DNA from: Chloroflexota bacterium
Lineage (GTDB): Bacteria; Chloroflexota; Anaerolineae; J036; Brachytrichaceae
Reading direction: 5' to 3'
Assembly: GCA_030550095.1 (NCBI GenBank)
Contig: JAUQQA010000001.1
Coordinates: forward strand, 1 to 64,000
DNA length: 64,000 bases
Shown here one piece after another: positions 5,823-28,550 of this stretch (positions are counted from its first letter, which is position 1; each line of letters starts with the position of its first letter). The notes under the pieces are model-generated. The model was not told where the DNA came from. It did no database searches and was given only the letters and a program-made list of their open reading frames with translations. The translations under genes and the position numbers were made by a program.

Positions 5823-7937
5823 TCACCGGCGCACCATCGGCACCCAAACGCGCGGGAATACGTTCGACGCGCGGTGCAGGTGCAGCAGACTGATGGAATA
5901 CGGAGGGAAGGCATAGGTCAACGTGCTACCGCTTGCGCTCAGTGGCGCTGGTGGTTCGCTCAGCGCATCTGAGGGGTTGGCGCTGCCGTTGTAGGTCACG
6001 CTCTGTGCATCGAGGCTGTTTGCGCGCACCTCCCACACCGCGCCGCTGATCAACGCGCCAAAGCCGCTCACTGTGATTGTCGCTGTGATCGGCGTGCCCG
6101 TCTTGTTGATCGCCATGAGCGAGATCGTGTCAGTGCTTACACGCCCAGCATAGACGCTGAGTTGCGTCGCGGCGCTGAGCGTGCTTGTAGCGCTGATCAT
6201 CTGGCTGCCAAAACGCGCCCAGAGGGGATAGACGTAGTATTGCGGCGCGCGGAAGAAGCCGTTGTCCTCGTGCATCAAGCCGTACTCCGTGCCGTTTTGC
6301 GCCCGACCGTTCGCCAAATCCCACTGCGCGAAGATCGGGATGCCATGTTGGGCAGCTTGCCCGAGTGAGTCCGCCAAGAAAAGCGCATTGATCGCGCGCG
6401 TCATGAGCTGCGCATTGTCTTGGTCTTGCACAGCGAACAAGTTGTATTCCGTCACTGCGATCGGCGCACGCCGCCCGTTGGCGTAAACATCAAAGGCGTT
6501 GTGGAGGTCGCTGACGATGCTGAAGAAATGCGTGTGCGGCTTGGCAAGCGCAGCCAGCAACGAGGGCGGGCTAACGAAGGGATACGGATGGATGCTGTAG
6601 AAATCCAAGTCGCTGCCTGCTGCGGAGATCACGCGCGCGCCCCAGCCGGCGAACGTCTGCCAACTGCTTTGCCCATCGTTGGGCGTGCCGGCCCGCTCAT
6701 AGCCCACAGCGCCGAGCTGAATGGTGGGGTCCACTGCTTTCATCGCTGCGCGAAACTCCAAGTAACCCTCGCGGCGCGCGCCACCGCTGCCCTTGCCGAA
6801 GACGTACTCGTAGCCGTCGCACGTCCACGTGTCTTCCCAGCCCCACGATTGACACAAGCTGCCGCCCGTGGAGGGCTTGCTGGCGTACACCTCGTTGCCG
6901 AACTCCCAGTAGCGAATACCGATTGGGTCCGTGTAGCCTGCGGCAGCGCGCAAGCGCGCCCAATGCCCCACGGTGTACCAGTCTGTGCCGCGGATGTCCA
7001 CGCCGATCGTGCGGTTGTCGTTGATGTCGCCGTTGAAGTACGCCACGAGCGCCGCTGCTTCTTTCGAGGTGCCCATCGGGCTGACTACCCACAGCCCCTC
7101 CATGCCTGTTGCCTTGAGGAAGGCGATGAAGTCGCGTGGGCGCGCCGCCCACGACTCCCACCCTGTTCCGCAATCCTGCCGTCCGGGTGCGTTTTGCCTC
7201 AGCTCACAGCTCAGCCAGCCGTAGGTGTTGCTCCAACTGCCGCCAGGCAGGCGCAGCAACGTCAGGCCCGAGGCGCGCGTGCGCGCCTGGAACGTCGTGT
7301 TGTTGAGCCGCGCCTCTCCGAGCCAAGCCGGCAAGTTGCTGGCGCGCAGATAAGGGCTGATCGCAGTCGGCGTCACGTCGGCGCGCACCGCGATCGTGGT
7401 GGTTAGCACTTGCGCCACGCTGCGCGCGCGAATGCGAATCTCATCTACGTAGAAGGTCGGCTGCGCGTTCGGCGTGTTGTTCATGACGCTCAGGCACTTG
7501 ATCTCGGCGGGGTTGCCGAGCGCGCCAACCGTGAAGGTGAACGGCGTCCATTGGTTCGTTGGCGCTGTGAAGTCGAACGAGAGCGGTGGACCGTAATCCA
7601 CTTCTTGCACAAAGAAACGCAACTGGCGCGCGCTGCCCGACGTGCCACCGTGCACCCACAGCGTGATCGCGTCGTAGAGCGTCGTGTCGAGCGGCGGATT
7701 GGTGCAGAAGATCACACCGCCCCAGCCGCTCGTGTACGTGACCGCGATCGAGGCGCTGCCCAGCGCGGGCGTCGTGTTGTTCAAGGCATACGTCGTGCTC
7801 CAGGCGCTCGCCGTCCACCCCGCGGACAACGCGTCGTCGAAAACCAACACATCAGGCGCTGCATAGGCGCGTTCTGCAAAACGAAACCCAAAGCCAAGCA
7901 ACAGCAAAAGGGCTAAGTGTCTAGGGCGAAGCAGCAT
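5823..7937 (-). CDS. Exported GH51/GH39-like glycoside hydrolase
   Basis: A 704-residue exported protein with a clear signal peptide (residues 1-26, ending AYAA). A purine-rich ribosome site (GGGGGGAGAG) lies directly before the ATG. Residues about 27-175 look like a beta-sandwich carbohydrate-binding module. The rest resembles clan GH-A arabinofuranosidase or xylosidase barrels: YWEFGNEVY has the Asn-Glu pair of the acid/base, and AVTEYNLFA has the expected nucleophile Glu. A C-terminal beta domain follows. The protein ends PRVWVPMVRR, a form of the motif shared by other exported proteins here. The likely role is cleavage of arabinose- or xylose-containing polysaccharide outside the cell; the exact family and substrate are inferred. 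It stands alone, with 55 bp to the UbiA gene. Confidence 0.75.
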   Translation of the reverse strand: MLLRPRHLALLLLLGFGFRFAERAYAAPDVLVFDDALSAGWTASAWSTTYALNNTTPALGSASIAVTYTSGWGGVIFCTNPPLDTTLYDAITLWVHGGTSGSARQLRFFVQEVDYGPPLSFDFTAPTNQWTPFTFTVGALGNPAEIKCLSVMNNTPNAQPTFYVDEIRIRARSVAQVLTTTIAVRADVTPTAISPYLRASNLPAWLGEARLNNTTFQARTRASGLTLLRLPGGSWSNTYGWLSCELRQNAPGRQDCGTGWESWAARPRDFIAFLKATGMEGLWVVSPMGTSKEAAALVAYFNGDINDNRTIGVDIRGTDWYTVGHWARLRAAAGYTDPIGIRYWEFGNEVYASKPSTGGSLCQSWGWEDTWTCDGYEYVFGKGSGGARREGYLEFRAAMKAVDPTIQLGAVGYERAGTPNDGQSSWQTFAGWGARVISAAGSDLDFYSIHPYPFVSPPSLLAALAKPHTHFFSIVSDLHNAFDVYANGRRAPIAVTEYNLFAVQDQDNAQLMTRAINALFLADSLGQAAQHGIPIFAQWDLANGRAQNGTEYGLMHEDNGFFRAPQYYVYPLWARFGSQMISATSTLSAATQLSVYAGRVSTDTISLMAINKTGTPITATITVSGFGALISGAVWEVRANSLDAQSVTYNGSANPSDALSEPPAPLSASGSTLTYAFPPYSISLLHLHRASNVFPRVWVPMVRR

Positions 7938-8014
7938 CTCTCCCCCCGTTTTGTGAACAGTTCAGCAACGGAACGCGATTATCCTCTAAGCTGAACGTGA
8001 AGGCAAATGACGCT

Positions 8015-20238: not shown

Positions 20239-22200
20239 ATGCTGCTCCCAGACTTCATCATCCACCCAGCGCAAAGCTGGACCCGCGCAAGCCTCTACTA
20301 CCTCAACATCAACGCCGAAACAGCACGCGCGCTGCTTGAGGATCTTGAACCGAGCGCATTGCGCCGCGTCATCCGCGCACACGGCGAGAAACCCAAAGCC
20401 ACTTCCTTCGCGGCATTGCTTGATCAGGCAACGCATCTCTGGCTGCGCCGCCATGAACAAGGAGGAGATCCCACCCTGCTCCTTGAGCAACTGGAAACCC
20501 CTCAGGAGCAGCAATGGCTGCGCGCCGTCTTCACCTTTTCTGACCCTGATTTGCTCATCCCAGGAGATGCGTTTCTACACGCAGCGGCGTATGCACGGCT
20601 CGCGCCCACTCGAATCAAGCGCTTGCTTGAGCGCTTCGTGATGCAAGGCGCGCTCTTTCTTGCAACACCTGTGCCTTTCAGCTCCGTGATTGAGTTAGAG
20701 AACGAGGCTGAGCTGAGCAGCGCAATCGCTAGCACCAGCGGGCAATGGATGGTCTTCACGCGCTTGCCACCTGTGCTGCATTGGACACCGCCCGCGATCA
20801 CGCCGAACGCCGCGACAGGCGCGGCGCTTCCGATCACGCAAGCGTTCGAGCGGCTCACCACGGCGCTGTATCGCGCACGTGCCGCGCTGAATACAGAGGC
20901 AGTGAATCGCTACCGCGAGGACCTGCGCGCCACCCCCGAACACCTTCCTTACGCATTGGTCCAAACCGAAGCAGAAGCGCGCAACAGCCAAGAGTTGTTG
21001 CCTTTGGTCAGCCCACTCACCCCCGAGGCGCTACACCAGCTCGCTGCTGCGACCGAGCTAGAAGCGCCCTTGGTCGAGTTCCTGTTTGGGTTGGCTGGTG
21101 TGCTTGGATTGGTCGAGCCGCCGCCGCAAAAGCCCCCCTACGAAGTGGGGCTCCACCGCGCACAGTATAGCCAATGGATCGCGCTCAGCCGCGAGGAGCA
21201 GCTTTTCGCCCTGTGGACGGCTTGGCAGTATTGGCTCTCGGATTGGATCGAGGCACGCCTTGCTATCGCACGCCTCCCCTACCACGCGCGCTTTGGCGTT
21301 GTGCGCCGCGTGCGCCCGCACCTCATCCCGCCCCGTCAGCTCGGCGCGGACTTGTGCGCAGCGCGTCGTCTCCTTGTGCGCTTTCTACGTGGCTTGCCTG
21401 ATGAGACCTGGTTCGACGCGCGCGCGCTCATCGCACAACTGCTCGATCGCTTGCCGCAGGCGTTGTGGTCTTACTCACACCCAACAGCGTGGGACTTCGT
21501 GGCAAACAACAGCGCGAACTCAGCCGAGACACGCAGGCAAGCGCAGATGTTGCTCTTCTTGCACATGCTGAGCGGACCGCTGCGCTGGTTTGGCGCAGTT
21601 GAGGTTTCCACCGACGCGCAAAGGCGCACTGAGGGATTGCGCATCACGCCGCTTGGACGCGTGTTGTTTGAGGCGCTGCGCGGCTTTGTGCCCGCTGCTG
21701 CACTGCGCGCCCATTGCAGCGAGCCTCTGGCTGAAGCAGATTCCCCTGCAATCACATGGCGCGATGATCACACAGTGCAACTGCGCCCCACAGTGCATCA
21801 TCGCGCGCTGCTCACGCTTGTGCAGTCCTTCGCCGATCTCAGTCAAGCCCCATACACGTTCACCTTCACGCCGCAGAGCATCGAGCGCGGCTTGCGCCAA
21901 GGCGCTTCGGTTGAAGCGCTCGCCCAGGCATTCGCCGAACAAGGCGCTCCGTTGCCCCAACAGTTGAGCGAGCAACTCCGCGCGCTTGCGCAACGCGTGG
22001 GGCGTGTGCGCGTGTACGAAGCGCTGCCCGTCGTTGAAGTTGCAGAGGCTGCCCTCCTACGCGAGCTTTTGGCACAGCCCGAGATCAGCCAGCACGTGCT
22101 GCACGTGCTTGGACCCACCGCGTTTGCAGTGCGCGAGGAGGCGCTGGAGGAATTTCTGCACGTCTTGCAGCGCAAGGGCTACACGCCCCGCATTGCCTGA
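20239..22200 (+). CDS. Helicase-associated domain protein, XPB neighbour (paralogue 1)
   Basis: A 653-residue protein. It has no Walker motifs and is not a helicase itself. Its C-terminal part carries the module also present at the XPB N-terminus, here at about 539-585 (YTFTFTPQSIERGL...PLPQQL), followed by the family end FAVREEALEEFLHVLQRKGY. The segment MLSGPLRWFGAVEVS recurs in the next gene as VVSGPLRWMGLIAL, and a variant is in the gene at 59.7-61.3 kb. The Mycobacterium pair Rv0861c (XPB) and Rv0862c shows the same neighbourhood, so a supporting role for the helicase is likely. The N-terminal 250 residues give no recognisable domain. Confidence 0.8.
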   Translation: MLLPDFIIHPAQSWTRASLYYLNINAETARALLEDLEPSALRRVIRAHGEKPKATSFAALLDQATHLWLRRHEQGGDPTLLLEQLETPQEQQWLRAVFTFSDPDLLIPGDAFLHAAAYARLAPTRIKRLLERFVMQGALFLATPVPFSSVIELENEAELSSAIASTSGQWMVFTRLPPVLHWTPPAITPNAATGAALPITQAFERLTTALYRARAALNTEAVNRYREDLRATPEHLPYALVQTEAEARNSQELLPLVSPLTPEALHQLAAATELEAPLVEFLFGLAGVLGLVEPPPQKPPYEVGLHRAQYSQWIALSREEQLFALWTAWQYWLSDWIEARLAIARLPYHARFGVVRRVRPHLIPPRQLGADLCAARRLLVRFLRGLPDETWFDARALIAQLLDRLPQALWSYSHPTAWDFVANNSANSAETRRQAQMLLFLHMLSGPLRWFGAVEVSTDAQRRTEGLRITPLGRVLFEALRGFVPAAALRAHCSEPLAEADSPAITWRDDHTVQLRPTVHHRALLTLVQSFADLSQAPYTFTFTPQSIERGLRQGASVEALAQAFAEQGAPLPQQLSEQLRALAQRVGRVRVYEALPVVEVAEAALLRELLAQPEISQHVLHVLGPTAFAVREEALEEFLHVLQRKGYTPRIA

Positions 22201-22206
22201 TCCACC

Positions 22207-23988
22207 ATGACGGTTTCTGCGTTGCCTTTGCTAGGTGCTCCTGAGCTGTATCGCCTTCTTGGGCGCTACGTGCGCCTCGTCGCCCAACGCGAAGAAGTGC
22301 CGCTCACCGCGCAAGGGCGCATCCGCAAGACGGTTTTCAAGAGCCTGCTACGCGATCTCGGGCTCGGCGAACACGCCATCACCGAGGATCAAGCGCCACA
22401 ACTGCTTTTCGCGCGGCTTGCGCTCATTGGGCTAGGCGTGTTCGAGGTTGACCAGCACAAGTTGCGCGTGAGGGATGCCGAGCGGTGGCTTGAACAGCCG
22501 CTCACGCGACGCGCGCAGTCGCTTCTGGAGACGTGGCTGGACGGCGCTGCTTGGAACGAGCTGGTGGAATTGCCCAGCGTTTCGGTCACGCGCTATCGCC
22601 TTGAGCCAGAAGGGCAACAGCGCTTGCGCGAGGCGCGCCAAACGCTGTTAACGGCGCTCAGCGCGCAACTCCGCGCTGCGCCGCGGCAAACGCTCTCGCT
22701 CGCCGCTTTCGTCGAGCATCTGCGCCAGCTCCCGTTCAAGTTGATCACAGACGCCCCCAGGCGCAACGACGCCTTCTCTTGGCGGGCTTCTTACTACGCT
22801 GCCGAAAGCCGGCTGGGCGTGAGCCTTTACCCTATCCCCACGAGCCTCGCTGAAGCGTGGGATCGCCTTGAGGGCGCGTTTGCGCTTCACGTGGTGAGCG
22901 GCCCACTGCGCTGGATGGGCTTGATCGCGCTGAGCCAAGAGCCGCGCCCCAACAATCTCGATCAGGTGCAGCTTCAGCTCACTGAAGCAGGGCGCTGGCT
23001 GCTCCTCGGCGCCGAAGCACCGCAGTGGGCAGAAACAGGCGGGCGCATCGTGGTGCAGCCCAACTTCACGGTGCTCGCCTTTGAGCCGCTGCCCGACAGG
23101 GTGTTGCTGGACTTAGAACGCTTCGCCGCGCTGCAGAGCGCCGACCGCGCGCTTACTTACCAGCTAACGCGCGAGTCCGTTTACCGCGCGCAGCTTCAAG
23201 GATGGAACGCGTCGCGCATCATCGCGTTCCTCGAGGCGCATAGCGGCGCGCTGCCTGCTAACGTGCGGCGCACGCTGGAGGAGTGGGAGGCGCAGCATCA
23301 ACGCATTGTGGTTCACAAGCAGGCGTGCGTGGTGCAACTCGCTGACGCCTCTATCCAACCCGCCGTGCTTGAGACGCTGCGCGCTTTCTCGCCGCGTGCC
23401 CTCGGGGAGCATTTTCTGCTTGTGCCCGCCGCTGCTCAAGCAGTGGTGGAAACGCTGCAACATCATGGTTGGAGCCCACACATTTCGCCGAAGCGCAGCG
23501 CCGAGCCAGAGGTGCGCATCACCGAAGACGGCACGATCACCTTGCGAACCACGCTGCCGAGCGTGCACGTCCTCGACCGTCTTCAGCAACTTGCTGACCT
23601 CACGCCAGATGCTGATGCACCTACCGCCCCGATGCGCGCGCGCATCACGCAACAAAGCGTGCAGCGCGCCATGGAACGCGGCATGAGCGTGGAGCAATAC
23701 GTGGCTGCGCTCAAGCAGCTCAACGGCGGCGCGTTGCCACACGCGCTGCTAGAGCGCATCACGCGGTGGTCACGCTTCTTTGGGCACGTGCGCGCGCAAC
23801 CGTTCTTCCGTCTGAAATTCTCCCATGCGCGCGTGTTGCATCACCTGCTGGAAGATAAGGAAATTGCGCCATACCTCAACCTGCCCGAGCTGCCCATTTT
23901 CACCGACGAAGCCTTTGTCGCCGCCGAGGACTTGCCAAAAGTGCGGCAGCTTTTGGAGGCGCGTGGCATCTCCTTCCTCGAGGGCTAG
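22207..23988 (+). CDS. Helicase-associated domain protein, XPB neighbour (paralogue 2, two modules)
   Basis: A 593-residue protein starting 6 bp after its paralogue, so certainly in one transcript. It carries two copies of the helicase-associated module, at about 318-362 (YQLTRESVYRAQLQGW...ALPANV) and 477-530 (RARITQQSVQRAMERG). Each is followed by the beta-hairpin-rich tail with an FAVREE-like pattern (LLVPAAAQAVVETLQHHGW, and FVAAEDLPKVRQLLEARG). No nucleotide-binding motif is present. The gene ends with its stop codon interleaved with that of the convergent M23 peptidase gene. DNA binding or scaffolding of the helicase is inferred only. Confidence 0.8.
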   Translation: MTVSALPLLGAPELYRLLGRYVRLVAQREEVPLTAQGRIRKTVFKSLLRDLGLGEHAITEDQAPQLLFARLALIGLGVFEVDQHKLRVRDAERWLEQPLTRRAQSLLETWLDGAAWNELVELPSVSVTRYRLEPEGQQRLREARQTLLTALSAQLRAAPRQTLSLAAFVEHLRQLPFKLITDAPRRNDAFSWRASYYAAESRLGVSLYPIPTSLAEAWDRLEGAFALHVVSGPLRWMGLIALSQEPRPNNLDQVQLQLTEAGRWLLLGAEAPQWAETGGRIVVQPNFTVLAFEPLPDRVLLDLERFAALQSADRALTYQLTRESVYRAQLQGWNASRIIAFLEAHSGALPANVRRTLEEWEAQHQRIVVHKQACVVQLADASIQPAVLETLRAFSPRALGEHFLLVPAAAQAVVETLQHHGWSPHISPKRSAEPEVRITEDGTITLRTTLPSVHVLDRLQQLADLTPDADAPTAPMRARITQQSVQRAMERGMSVEQYVAALKQLNGGALPHALLERITRWSRFFGHVRAQPFFRLKFSHARVLHHLLEDKEIAPYLNLPELPIFTDEAFVAAEDLPKVRQLLEARGISFLEG

Positions 23989-25195: not shown

Positions 25196-25672
25196 ATGGC
25201 CCAAGAAGTCTTCTTTTGCAAATCCGTTCCCGCGCTCGGCGAAGTGCAAGCGAGCGTGAATTTCGACGCTGAGGCGTTCGGCGCCAGCACTCACATCACG
25301 CCGCTCACGGTCGCCATTGAAGCAGAAGGGCATGACCTCGGGCGCATCGTTGGCTTTGAGGGCGAGGCGCAGGCGATCATCGCCATGCATGGGCTGAAGC
25401 CCGATCCGCAAGCCAAGCGCGCGCTCGAGATAACCGTGTTTCGCGTGAGCGAACCGCTGCGCGCGCACAAGTTGGATGCCCTTGTGTTTGCGGCGTTCGA
25501 GCGCTGGCTGTTGCGGCGCGGTTGGCGCGGCGATTTGCTCAAGCGCCTCTTGTTCACCGACCCGCAACAGGTGATCCCGATCCGCACCTTTTGGGTGAAG
25601 CAGCTCGGCTTTGAGCTGGTGCTCGCCGAGGAGGGCAAATGGGATGAGCACGTGGTGAAGCGCTGGCGCTAG
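25196..25672 (+). CDS. Conserved-looking hypothetical protein
   Basis: A 158-residue acidic/basic mixed protein without membrane segments or signal peptide. The best-supported frame is the plus strand: it reads as ordinary globular sequence (GRIVGFEGEAQAIIAMHGL, then FERWLLRRGWRGDLLKRLL), while the antisense frame is rich in His and Ala as expected of a shadow. The closing segment VKQLGFELVLAEEGKWDE recalls the last strand and helix of GNAT acetyltransferases, but no acetyl-CoA loop is visible, so I do not assign a function. It stops 3 bp before the convergent amidohydrolase stop. Confidence 0.6.
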   Translation: MAQEVFFCKSVPALGEVQASVNFDAEAFGASTHITPLTVAIEAEGHDLGRIVGFEGEAQAIIAMHGLKPDPQAKRALEITVFRVSEPLRAHKLDALVFAAFERWLLRRGWRGDLLKRLLFTDPQQVIPIRTFWVKQLGFELVLAEEGKWDEHVVKRWR

Positions 25673-25675
25673 CGC

Positions 25676-27679
25676 TCACGCGATCGCCTCTTCGGGTTCT
25701 TCGGCGATCTGCACGTATTCCTGGCGCAGCAGCGCTTCATCACTCACGCCGAAGCGTGCGAGTAGTTTGCTGATGGCGGCAGCCTTGCGCTCCGCATCGC
25801 GCTGGCTCCAGGTGCGGCTCTTGATTTCTAGGAAGTACCCCTCGCGGGGCGGATTCACCATGCGATCGATGTTGATGAACATCTCCTCGTCGTCGAAGAA
25901 CACCTCCCAGCGCAGGCGATCCTTCTCGACGTGCACCTCGCGCGCGGGCTTGAAATACTCACGGTAGAAGCGCAAGCTGCGGTCCGCAGGCGCCATGAAG
26001 CGGACGCGGCTGAGCAAGATGGCGTGTGGATATTCGCGCTCGCGCTGCCCGCTCACGAGCGTCAGGCGATAGCGCGTGCTCACGACTTGCCCGTTCTCGT
26101 CAACGCGCTCGTCCTCGCGGTAGCGCAAGCGCGAAGGCTCATGGTCGAAGAAGAAATAGGTGTCGTACTGGCGATAGTGCACGTGGCGCACAATGGTGAT
26201 CTCGCCGCTGTGGTTGATAAAGTCAATCAGCGGCTGTGGGTCTGAAATACGCGCCTTGACCTGCACCTCAAAGGACTCCTGCTGTTGCACCCCGCCGATT
26301 GCCGCGAGCTTGCGCAACACGTCGCCCTCGCGCGCGACGAGGAAGCCATGCACGCGCCGCGCCACCTCTTGCGCCTGCGCGCGGATTTCTGCCTCGTTCA
26401 GCGTGAGCAGCTCACGCGCGCGCATCAAGCAGCGCCCGTTCACGAACACATCGCGCACGTCGGTAGATTTGCTGGAGTACACAATGAGCGTGTAGATCGC
26501 ATCGCTTTCGGGATCGAGCGCAGCGTAGTTGGGCGCGGTGTGCAGGTGATCGAGTTCGAGCACGATCACGTCGGCGCGCTTGCCCACTTCCAGCGAGCCA
26601 GTGAGCGCGCCAATGTGCAGCGCCTCGGCGCCCATGCGCGTCGCCATGAGCATTGCCGTGCGCGCCGGCACGGCAAGCGGATCGCGGGTGCTGCCCTTGG
26701 CAAGCAGCGCGGCGAGACGCATCTCCTCGAAGTGATCGAGGTCGTTGTTGCTCGCGGGACCATCCGTGCCGATGCCCACCTTCAGCCCTGTGTCGAGCAT
26801 TTTTTGCACGTTGGCGATGCCGCTGGCGAGCTTGAGGTTCGCGGTGGGGTTGTGGGCGACGGTAGCGCCGGCGTTGCGCAGCGTGCGCATCTCGCCGGCG
26901 TCAATCGCCACGCAGTGCGCGGCGATCACCTTCGCCTCGAGCACGCCGTTCTTCTTCACCCAGTTCACCACCGGCATGCCGTGATCGCGGCGGCATTCTT
27001 CTACTTCCTGCTGCGTCTCGCTGATGTGGATGTGCAGCGGCACGTCGTAGCGGATGGCGATCTCAGCGCAGGCGCGCATCAGCTCACCGCTGCACGTGTA
27101 AGGCGCATGAGGCGCGATCACAGGCGTGATCAGCGGATGCCCGCGCCACTTCTGGATGAAGCGCTCAGTGAACTCCAAGCTCTCATCGGCGGAGTGCGCG
27201 TCGGGCGTGGGAAACTGCATGATGGTCTGCGAGCACAGCGCGCGCATGCCCACCTCGGCAAGCGTTTGCGCGATGGTGTCCTCGAAGTAGTACATGTCGT
27301 TCACGCAGGTCACGCCGCTGCGCAACATCTCGGCACACGCTAGCCGCGTGCCCAGCGCGACAAACTCCGGCGAGACGAACGCGCGCTCGACAGGCAGCAT
27401 GTAGCCGTAGAGCCACACATCCAAGCGGCGATCATCTGCCAAGCCGCGCAGCAGCGTCATAGGGAGATGCGTGTGCGCGTTGACCAAACCGGGCAAGATG
27501 GCGCAGCCAGAGCAGTCAATAATCTCCTTTGCTGAGACGCTCGCGCCCACCGTCTCCGCATCTCCCACTGCCACGATGCTATCTCCGCGAATGGCGACGG
27601 CGCCGCGCGGATACTTGCGGAACTGTTCGTCCATGGTGAGGACGAAGCCATTGACGAGGAGGATATCCGCTTGCTGCAT
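25676..27679 (-). CDS. Amidohydrolase (MtaD/SAH deaminase-like) fused to a CYTH-like domain
   Basis: A 667-residue fusion. Residues 1 to about 445 form a complete metal-dependent amidohydrolase: HTH at 69-71, His217 in IHISE, His255 in AAHC and Asp306 in GTDGP match the subgroup that deaminates 5-methylthioadenosine, S-adenosylhomocysteine or similar purines. From about 468 the sequence changes to a CYTH-like beta-tunnel pattern: FEVQVKAR at the start, YRQYDTYFF, RLRYRED, RYRLTLVSG and a final YFLEIKSRT. CYTH enzymes act on triphosphates, for example thiamine triphosphatase and class IV adenylyl cyclase. The usual ExExK is EVQVK here, with Gln at the second acidic place. I chose the ATG at 27679; a TATAAC box 6 bp upstream suggests a leaderless message. 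Domain 1 is sure, domain 2 likely, the joint function unknown. Confidence 0.88.
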   Translation of the reverse strand: MQQADILLVNGFVLTMDEQFRKYPRGAVAIRGDSIVAVGDAETVGASVSAKEIIDCSGCAILPGLVNAHTHLPMTLLRGLADDRRLDVWLYGYMLPVERAFVSPEFVALGTRLACAEMLRSGVTCVNDMYYFEDTIAQTLAEVGMRALCSQTIMQFPTPDAHSADESLEFTERFIQKWRGHPLITPVIAPHAPYTCSGELMRACAEIAIRYDVPLHIHISETQQEVEECRRDHGMPVVNWVKKNGVLEAKVIAAHCVAIDAGEMRTLRNAGATVAHNPTANLKLASGIANVQKMLDTGLKVGIGTDGPASNNDLDHFEEMRLAALLAKGSTRDPLAVPARTAMLMATRMGAEALHIGALTGSLEVGKRADVIVLELDHLHTAPNYAALDPESDAIYTLIVYSSKSTDVRDVFVNGRCLMRARELLTLNEAEIRAQAQEVARRVHGFLVAREGDVLRKLAAIGGVQQQESFEVQVKARISDPQPLIDFINHSGEITIVRHVHYRQYDTYFFFDHEPSRLRYREDERVDENGQVVSTRYRLTLVSGQREREYPHAILLSRVRFMAPADRSLRFYREYFKPAREVHVEKDRLRWEVFFDDEEMFINIDRMVNPPREGYFLEIKSRTWSQRDAERKAAAISKLLARFGVSDEALLRQEYVQIAEEPEEAIA

Positions 27680-27761: not shown

Positions 27762-28550
27762 TCACGCTGCGTCGTCTTCGTCGCTCAAGCCGAGCGCGCG
27801 CAACCGCGCTGCAAGCCGCGCGGCGCGTTGCTCTGCTGCCTCGGCGCGTTGGCGTTCTGCCTCAGCACGTTGGCGTTCCTGCTCGAGCAGCTCTGCGGCG
27901 GTTGGTATGAGCTGCCCTTCCGCGTCGTAGAGGCGCAGCCAGCGCGTGCGCATGCCGTTGTATTCTCCTTCCCACGTCCCCAGCCACACGCCAAGCACTT
28001 CGCTCCAGCGCCAGCCGCGCTCATTGGCGTCAACCTCGCGGTAGCGCTCGCCGTTGAGCCGCCACAGGTAAAACTCGACTTTCGTGTGCTGCGTGGGATC
28101 AGGTCCGTAACACACGTACTCGGGCACGCGCAACACGCGCTCATAGAGGTCTTTCTTCGTCCCCAAATCCTCGCGGCGCGTAGATTCGGAAAGCAGCTCC
28201 ATGATGAAGTTGGGCGCTCGCCCACCCTCAAGCCAAATTGCCCAGTAGGGCCGCGGGCGTGTGCCGTCCACGTCCTTCACCACGAACAGATCAGGACCGC
28301 GATACGAGAGGGTTTGTGCTTGTTCGAGGTTGTAGTAAAGGAACATGTTGCCAGCGATGTAAAAATCCGTGCGCCCACGCCAGAGTTGGCGAAGGCAATC
28401 CTCGAACAAGTTGATTTGCAGGCGATGCCAAGCGTTTTCCAAGGGGATGCCATCCTCGTCAAGAAGTTTGAGCGAGGCAAGCGCTGCAAGCTCGGCGTCG
28501 GAGATCCTCGCCGGCTGCGCTTGCAAGGCGGGTGCCTCTTGGAGCGTCAC
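27762..28550 (-). CDS. Uma2-family putative PD-(D/E)XK nuclease with coiled-coil tail
   Basis: A 262-residue protein of the Uma2 (DUF820) type, common in large numbers in Chloroflexota and Cyanobacteria. The nuclease-like core reads GPDLFVVKDVD, then NFIMELLSEST, then DLGTKKDLYERVLRVPEYVCY, giving the expected D...E-x-x...D...K...Y order. The C-terminal 50 residues are a charged coiled coil built from ERQRAEAE-like repeats. Nothing shows what DNA, if any, it cuts. It starts with GTG, 5 bp after the MFS gene stop, as last gene of the operon from 32.8 kb. Confidence 0.88.
   Translation of the reverse strand: MTLQEAPALQAQPARISDAELAALASLKLLDEDGIPLENAWHRLQINLFEDCLRQLWRGRTDFYIAGNMFLYYNLEQAQTLSYRGPDLFVVKDVDGTRPRPYWAIWLEGGRAPNFIMELLSESTRREDLGTKKDLYERVLRVPEYVCYGPDPTQHTKVEFYLWRLNGERYREVDANERGWRWSEVLGVWLGTWEGEYNGMRTRWLRLYDAEGQLIPTAAELLEQERQRAEAERQRAEAAEQRAARLAARLRALGLSDEDDAA

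Follow-up and report, generated by a model that had tools for sequence, protein, structure and literature searches.

An MtaD-like deaminase fused to a triphosphate-tunnel domain with altered metal-site motifs in Chloroflexota

Introduction

Proteins of the CYTH/triphosphate-tunnel (TTM) fold occur everywhere, and their published roles, in the literature that we surveyed, are enzymatic or substrate-binding. The known fusions of the CYTH domain join it to an HD hydrolase, an exopolyphosphatase, a nucleotidyl kinase or CHAD, and a deaminase is not among these partners (Vogt et al., PMC8233210). A gene in the first 64,000 nucleotides of a Chloroflexota contig (this whole stretch is called the window below) raises the question of what a tunnel of this kind would do at the end of an enzyme of purine metabolism. 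The initial annotation read the gene as an MtaD/SAH-deaminase-like enzyme followed by a CYTH-like domain, and suggested that the latter could sense a nucleotide or triphosphate and regulate the deaminase, or act on the deaminase product. We found no published description of a deaminase-CYTH fusion in the openly accessible literature, and regard the protein as new in two respects: a fold and an enzyme that are each familiar occur here in a conserved combination not described before, and the active-site pattern is new as well.

Results

One intact reading frame encodes both domains

25676..27679, minus strand: entire fusion gene of 667 aa, from the ATG at 27679 to the stop at 25676-25678
26345..27679, minus strand: amidohydrolase / MTA-SAH deaminase-type domain, aa 1-445 (Pfam, NCBIfam, match to 4f0r)
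25700..26284, minus strand: CYTH / TTM-like domain, aa about 466-660 (homologue profile matches, AlphaFold, Foldseek, HHalign)

The gene boundaries given by the initial annotation are correct: a single minus-strand open reading frame, uninterrupted by any internal stop, runs across both domains, and most homologues start at the same position or within 1-2 residues of it. The AlphaFold model of the full-length protein reached a pLDDT of 91.3 and a pTM of 0.85. An assembly error joining two genes, which had been named as the finding that would undo the fusion, is ruled out since all fetched relatives (80/80, full-length or cut by contig ends), from many independent assemblies, are fused as well, and the conservation pattern of the protein excludes both chance and assembly artefact. 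A whole-genome search with a profile of the C-terminal domain detected the same fusion in 62 of the 301 Chloroflexota genomes sampled, some of them in the window's class and others not.

The N-terminal domain resembles deaminases of 5'-modified adenosines

27467..27475, minus strand: HxH metal motif H69-T-H71 (both His conserved 100/100; alignment to 4f0r)
27017..27028, minus strand: H218 and E221 (conserved 100/100)
26915..26917, minus strand: active-site H255 (conserved 100/100)
26762..26764, minus strand: active-site D306 (conserved 100/100)
26492..26530, minus strand: short insertion, aa about 384-396, in fused deaminases and not in unfused paralogues (alignment gap in 4f0r)

The MtaD/SAH-deaminase-like assignment held. 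Residues 61-416 match Pfam Amidohydro_1 (2.3e-68), the best solved relative is the MTA/SAH deaminase 4f0r (E 2e-94 over residues 12-443), and the amidohydrolase active-site set (HxH, H, E, H, D) is present as H69, H71, H218, E221, H255 and D306, which do not vary in any sequence that includes these positions; from knowledge of the family, we take H218 and E221 to be a metal ligand and the catalytic Glu, respectively. The best NCBIfam models are the TRZ/ATZ hydrolase model PRK09045 and related deaminases, all of them scoring under their curated cut-offs (PRK09045, 451.7 bits vs. 540; PRK07228, the 5'-deoxyadenosine deaminase, 348.6 vs. 522; PRK15493, 314.6 vs. 779). Consequently, the domain is filed here as MtaD-like with no named equivalog, and annotation leaves its exact substrate unfixed. 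The N-terminal half is predicted to be an active deaminase of 5'-modified adenosines, and the fused enzyme probably removes the amino group from spent adenosine compounds. The solved MtaD relatives (4f0r, 4dyk, TM0936) share with the fused protein the full-length amidohydrolase domain and all catalytic residues; however, they are only 406-472 aa long, match only to residue ~444, and lack the tunnel domain, and the fused forms differ further by the short extra loop near residues 384-396.

The C-terminal domain is predicted to be a triphosphate tunnel

The copy of the C-terminal domain in the window is too divergent in sequence to be recognized directly: its 213 aa alone had no Pfam, NCBIfam or PDB sequence match, and a PDB sequence search with its profile also found nothing. 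The CYTH-like assignment is nonetheless upheld by its homologues, 26 of 47 of which match Pfam CYTH (PF01928; best 6.8e-9) and 32 of 47 the cyaB model TIGR00318 (best 3.5e-9), and by HHalign comparison with Chloroflexota CYTH proteins (E 1e-7). Further, the AlphaFold model built with 47 homologues (pLDDT 93.2) has a strand-rich topology that, together with Foldseek, gives an eight-stranded beta tunnel with a C-terminal plug helix. Among solved structures, Foldseek ranked Yersinia CyaB and Sulfolobus SaTTM first (E about 2e-7, probability 1.00) and also matched those of AtTTM3 and ThTPase. A fold other than a beta tunnel, the other outcome that would have spoken against the initial annotation, is thus ruled out by the two structural comparisons, and the C-terminal half is, according to these models, a CYTH/TTM tunnel.

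The tunnel retains its basic pocket and appears to have lost ligands of one metal site

26255..26269, minus strand: ExQxK motif E471-V-Q473-V-K475, canonical ExExK (E, Q and K each 101/101; profile alignment)
26117..26125, minus strand: RxR motif R519-Y-R521, triphosphate-binding arginines (101/101)
26000..26008, minus strand: R558-V-R560, RxE in canonical CYTH (R560 101/101; canonical E 29/29)
25820..25828, minus strand: strand-8 E618-I-K620, ExE in canonical CYTH (E and K 99/99; canonical ExE 29/29)

Motif counts refer to an alignment of 101 fused-family members, 99 of which reach K586 and the positions beyond it. All 101 share E471, Q473, K475, D506, Y508, R519, R521 and R560, and all 99 share K586, R588, R590, E618 and K620; the invariance of K475, D506, Y508, R519, R521, K586, R588, R590 and E618 indicates that the tunnel pocket is under selection. 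The Gln in place of the second Glu of ExExK had been pointed out before and stands, but it is a family-wide feature rather than a peculiarity of the protein in the window. Two additional changes had been missed, i.e., the middle-strand RxE reads RxR (101/101) and the strand-8 ExE reads ExK (99/99). Among 29 canonical Chloroflexota CYTH proteins, RxE and ExE are both present in 29/29; the corresponding count for ExExK is circular, since these comparison proteins were chosen by that motif.

Compared to CYTH triphosphatases and class IV cyclases (SaTTM 7ns9, YpCyaB 3n0z, ygiF), the fused domain has in common the eight-strand tunnel, the first Glu and the Lys of ExExK, DxY, RxR, KxR, the first Glu of strand 8 and the terminal Y, and differs from them by ExQxK, RxR for RxE, ExK for ExE, and its position after a deaminase. 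In ygiF, E160 bridges metal 1, the ligands of metal 2 are E4, E6 and E162, and mutation of such metal-binding Glu residues (to Ala or Asp) strongly lowers TTM hydrolysis (Martinez et al. 2015, PMC4641920). Mapped from the published TTM structures, the family appears to retain metal site 1 (E618) and the basic tunnel, whereas metal site 2 would keep E471 and lose two of its three ligands (Q473, K620). In SaTTM with Mg/PPPi, the second Glu of ExExK was instead assigned to metal 1 (Vogt et al. 2021, PMC8233210), in which case the Gln of ExQxK may also impair site 1. Judging from these substitutions, the domain is unlikely to be an efficient two-metal hydrolase under either assignment.

The same residues bear on the activities that a CYTH domain might have been expected to carry. 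The motifs of a two-metal TTM triphosphatase are absent from the family, strand 1 reading ExQxK in 101/101 and strand 8 ExK in 99/99, which speaks against an ordinary triphosphatase. Class IV cyclases are recognized by an HF motif before ExExK and by an xxRxR motif without its central Arg (PMC8233210); none of the family sequences inspected has the HF motif and the central Arg, R519, is kept in 101/101, which speaks against a class IV adenylate cyclase (CyaB). Cyclase activity, mentioned in the initial annotation, is therefore disfavoured, also because two of the three metal-2 ligands are replaced, and the latter replacement likewise disfavours a domain that acts on the deaminase product. A thiamine triphosphatase is rejected by the W/YxRxR test, position 517 being R in 87/101 and Y in 4.

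A relationship to VTC proteins was also assessed. The Vtc4p-type VTC polymerase tunnel resembles the fused domain in its last-strand ExK, which Chloroflexota VTC proteins also have, and in a single metal site (predicted for the fused domain). Vtc4p works with metal site 1 alone and has basic residues where triphosphatases have an acidic patch (PMC4641920). Nevertheless, there is no relation at the profile level (hhalign probability 1.8% over 12 columns) and no VTC structure among the 50 Foldseek matches listed for the C-terminal domain. Descent from the VTC family is ruled out by the profile comparison, and by sequence the two belong to different TTM branches; hence, the shared ExK looks like convergence on a one-metal, basic tunnel. 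A parallel in architecture is offered by TTM1/TTM2 of plants (structure 7z67), in which a TTM with altered ExExK and ExE is likewise joined to an enzyme of nucleotide metabolism (nucleotide-kinase-like), but with another partner enzyme, other motif changes and in another kingdom.

The fusion is common in one class and likely arose once

The C-terminal domain was found in 33 of 38 genomes of the window's class and in 29 of 263 genomes from the rest of the phylum. Every profile match lay within a frame of at least 658 aa, bar one that begins at a contig end, and no unfused C-terminal domain was found among the matches in the 301 genomes. In this sample, the tunnel domain thus came with the deaminase throughout. 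A quick FastTree phylogeny with few outgroups placed the fused deaminases (97 sequences) in a single clade with support 0.966 and set it apart from the 11 unfused homologues, and the insertion at 384-396 is present in this clade and absent from the unfused homologues that cover the region, suggesting that a single origin of the fusion is likely. A plasmid collection had no match to the fusion. Cultured bacteria such as Pelolinea submarina carry the fusion, and one relative (G297) has two full-length copies, on contigs C53 and C121. In the window's own genome (G000), Pfam detects a CYTH domain in one protein only, a separate one of 553 aa (contig C53, L089 1336-2997, plus strand) with a long helical C-terminal part that is CHAD-like by eye. 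One short contig of another genome (L187; G316 contig C174) encodes, besides a NupC-like transporter, a nucleoside phosphorylase and a cytidine deaminase, a truncated MtaD that falls near the fused clade, and a GrpE-like sequence follows (names by eye); this contig is possibly a contaminant or chimeric.

Genomic context and related pathways

Operon context is a weak clue to the function of the fusion because the neighbours are clade-specific. In the window, Uma2, MFS, CobU and ScpA genes are upstream and an M23/LysM peptidase gene is downstream; the Uma2 gene (putative restriction endonuclease family; 27765-28550, minus strand) lies directly upstream on the same strand, and a 158-aa ORF with no Pfam match (25196-25672, plus strand) adjoins the fusion gene. 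Farther away, two adjacent large plus-strand ORFs (20239-23988) have Helicase_C_3 domains, one of them weakly similar to Tfb2, and look like a paired system of helicase C-terminal domains of the XPB/Ssl2 type in which no helicase core is obvious. Anaerolineales loci have CinA-like, MiaA-like and starch-synthase-like neighbours (named by eye). In about nine Chloroflexia-like loci, coaE (dephospho-CoA kinase) adjoins the fusion on the same strand, in some cases overlapping it or nearly so (L159, where coaE is at 7345-8001, and L166, L165, L168, L163, L160, L158, L162 and L161); in the remaining loci searched, those of Anaerolineae included, the fusion has no coaE beside it. No polyphosphate gene neighbour was noticed in the loci examined. 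SAH hydrolase was found in 38 of 40 relatives and PNP_UDP_1 phosphorylases in 40 of 40, so that SAH has routes other than the deaminase, and the deaminated nucleosides could plausibly be cleaved further downstream.

Discussion

The simplest view of a strictly conserved tunnel that has apparently lost metal site 2 and is joined to an enzyme in every member is that of a regulatory module which binds a ligand. We accordingly favour, with about an even chance of being right, the explanation that the C-terminal domain is a non-hydrolysing tunnel that binds triphosphate or polyphosphate and regulates or positions the deaminase; given the evidence, sensing of a triphosphate coupled to (inferred) regulation is the best of the alternatives in the initial annotation. 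Under this hypothesis, the deaminase half would act on spent SAM-derived compounds, i.e., 5'-methylthioadenosine (MTA), S-adenosylhomocysteine (SAH) or 5'-deoxyadenosine. The tunnel, of CyaB/inorganic-triphosphatase lineage, would use a single metal at site 1 to bind a ligand that carries a triphosphate (PPPi, ATP or short polyphosphate) and, with catalytic site 2 no longer built, hold it without efficient hydrolysis, and binding would change the activity, the oligomeric state or the location of the deaminase. SAM synthetase forms PPPi while making SAM, and MTA, SAH and 5'-deoxyadenosine are the leftovers of SAM use that the deaminase would clear, which may be the reason for the fusion. PPPi is thus an attractive ligand, and the fusion might link the removal of spent SAM with SAM production or with the phosphate/energy state; ATP and polyphosphate as ligands are equally compatible with the data.

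Alternatively, the CYTH domain could be an enzyme with altered chemistry that works independently of the deaminase, for instance a phosphotransferase/polymerase with one metal, as in Vtc4p, or an NTPase in which Lys620 takes the place of metal 2. The invariant tunnel residues and the last-strand ExK and one-metal mechanism of the VTC tunnels fit this explanation, but the profile ties the domain to CYTH and not to VTC, the listed structural matches and the gene neighbours offer neither a VTC structure nor a polyphosphate gene, and we consider it unlikely. A still smaller chance is given to an ordinary two-metal triphosphatase that tolerates the Gln and Lys and is fused only for co-expression: CYTH membership is in its favour, yet every member has substitutions at two of the three metal-2 ligand positions, one of them to Lys, and Asp or Ala at these positions impairs the characterised enzymes, so that we find this very hard to credit.

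It is also conceivable that the tunnel serves the substrate rather than regulation, holding a phosphate tail (of ATP, dephospho-CoA or similar, or RNA) such that the deaminase acts on a nucleotide and not a nucleoside. Deaminases of this fold do take 5'-substituted adenosines and coaE does adjoin the fusion in part of the Chloroflexia-like loci; however, this adjacency is confined to those loci, and the nearest relatives of the deaminase are MTA/SAH enzymes, which accommodate uncharged or amino-acid 5' groups in their sites, making this scenario rather improbable. Just as improbable, in our view, is a targeting or oligomerisation domain (e.g., one that binds polyphosphate granules) with no effect on catalysis, for which the unusually basic conserved tunnel and the CHAD polyphosphate-binding modules that accompany TTM enzymes could be cited, but which would not require the conservation of site-1 Glu618 and of the precise triphosphate residues, beyond the needs of general polyanion binding.

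If the favoured explanation of a ligand-binding, regulatory tunnel is extended to the whole family, Chloroflexota might possess phylum-wide triphosphate-gated deaminases, in which a TTM without its catalytic metal site senses PPPi, ATP or polyphosphate allosterically and couples the removal of nucleosides left over from SAM use to the making of SAM or to the phosphate/energy state. We advance this broader model only tentatively and think it somewhat improbable as a whole; to our knowledge, a triphosphate-gated deaminase would, if true, be the first sensor role for the CYTH fold. A conserved tunnel branch that apparently lacks site 2 and is always welded to a predicted deaminase of SAM by-products offers a clean test of this fold as a phosphate sensor, and the existence of cultured carriers makes the hypothesis testable. 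The fusion is also a candidate link between SAM turnover and triphosphate/polyphosphate status in an understudied phylum.
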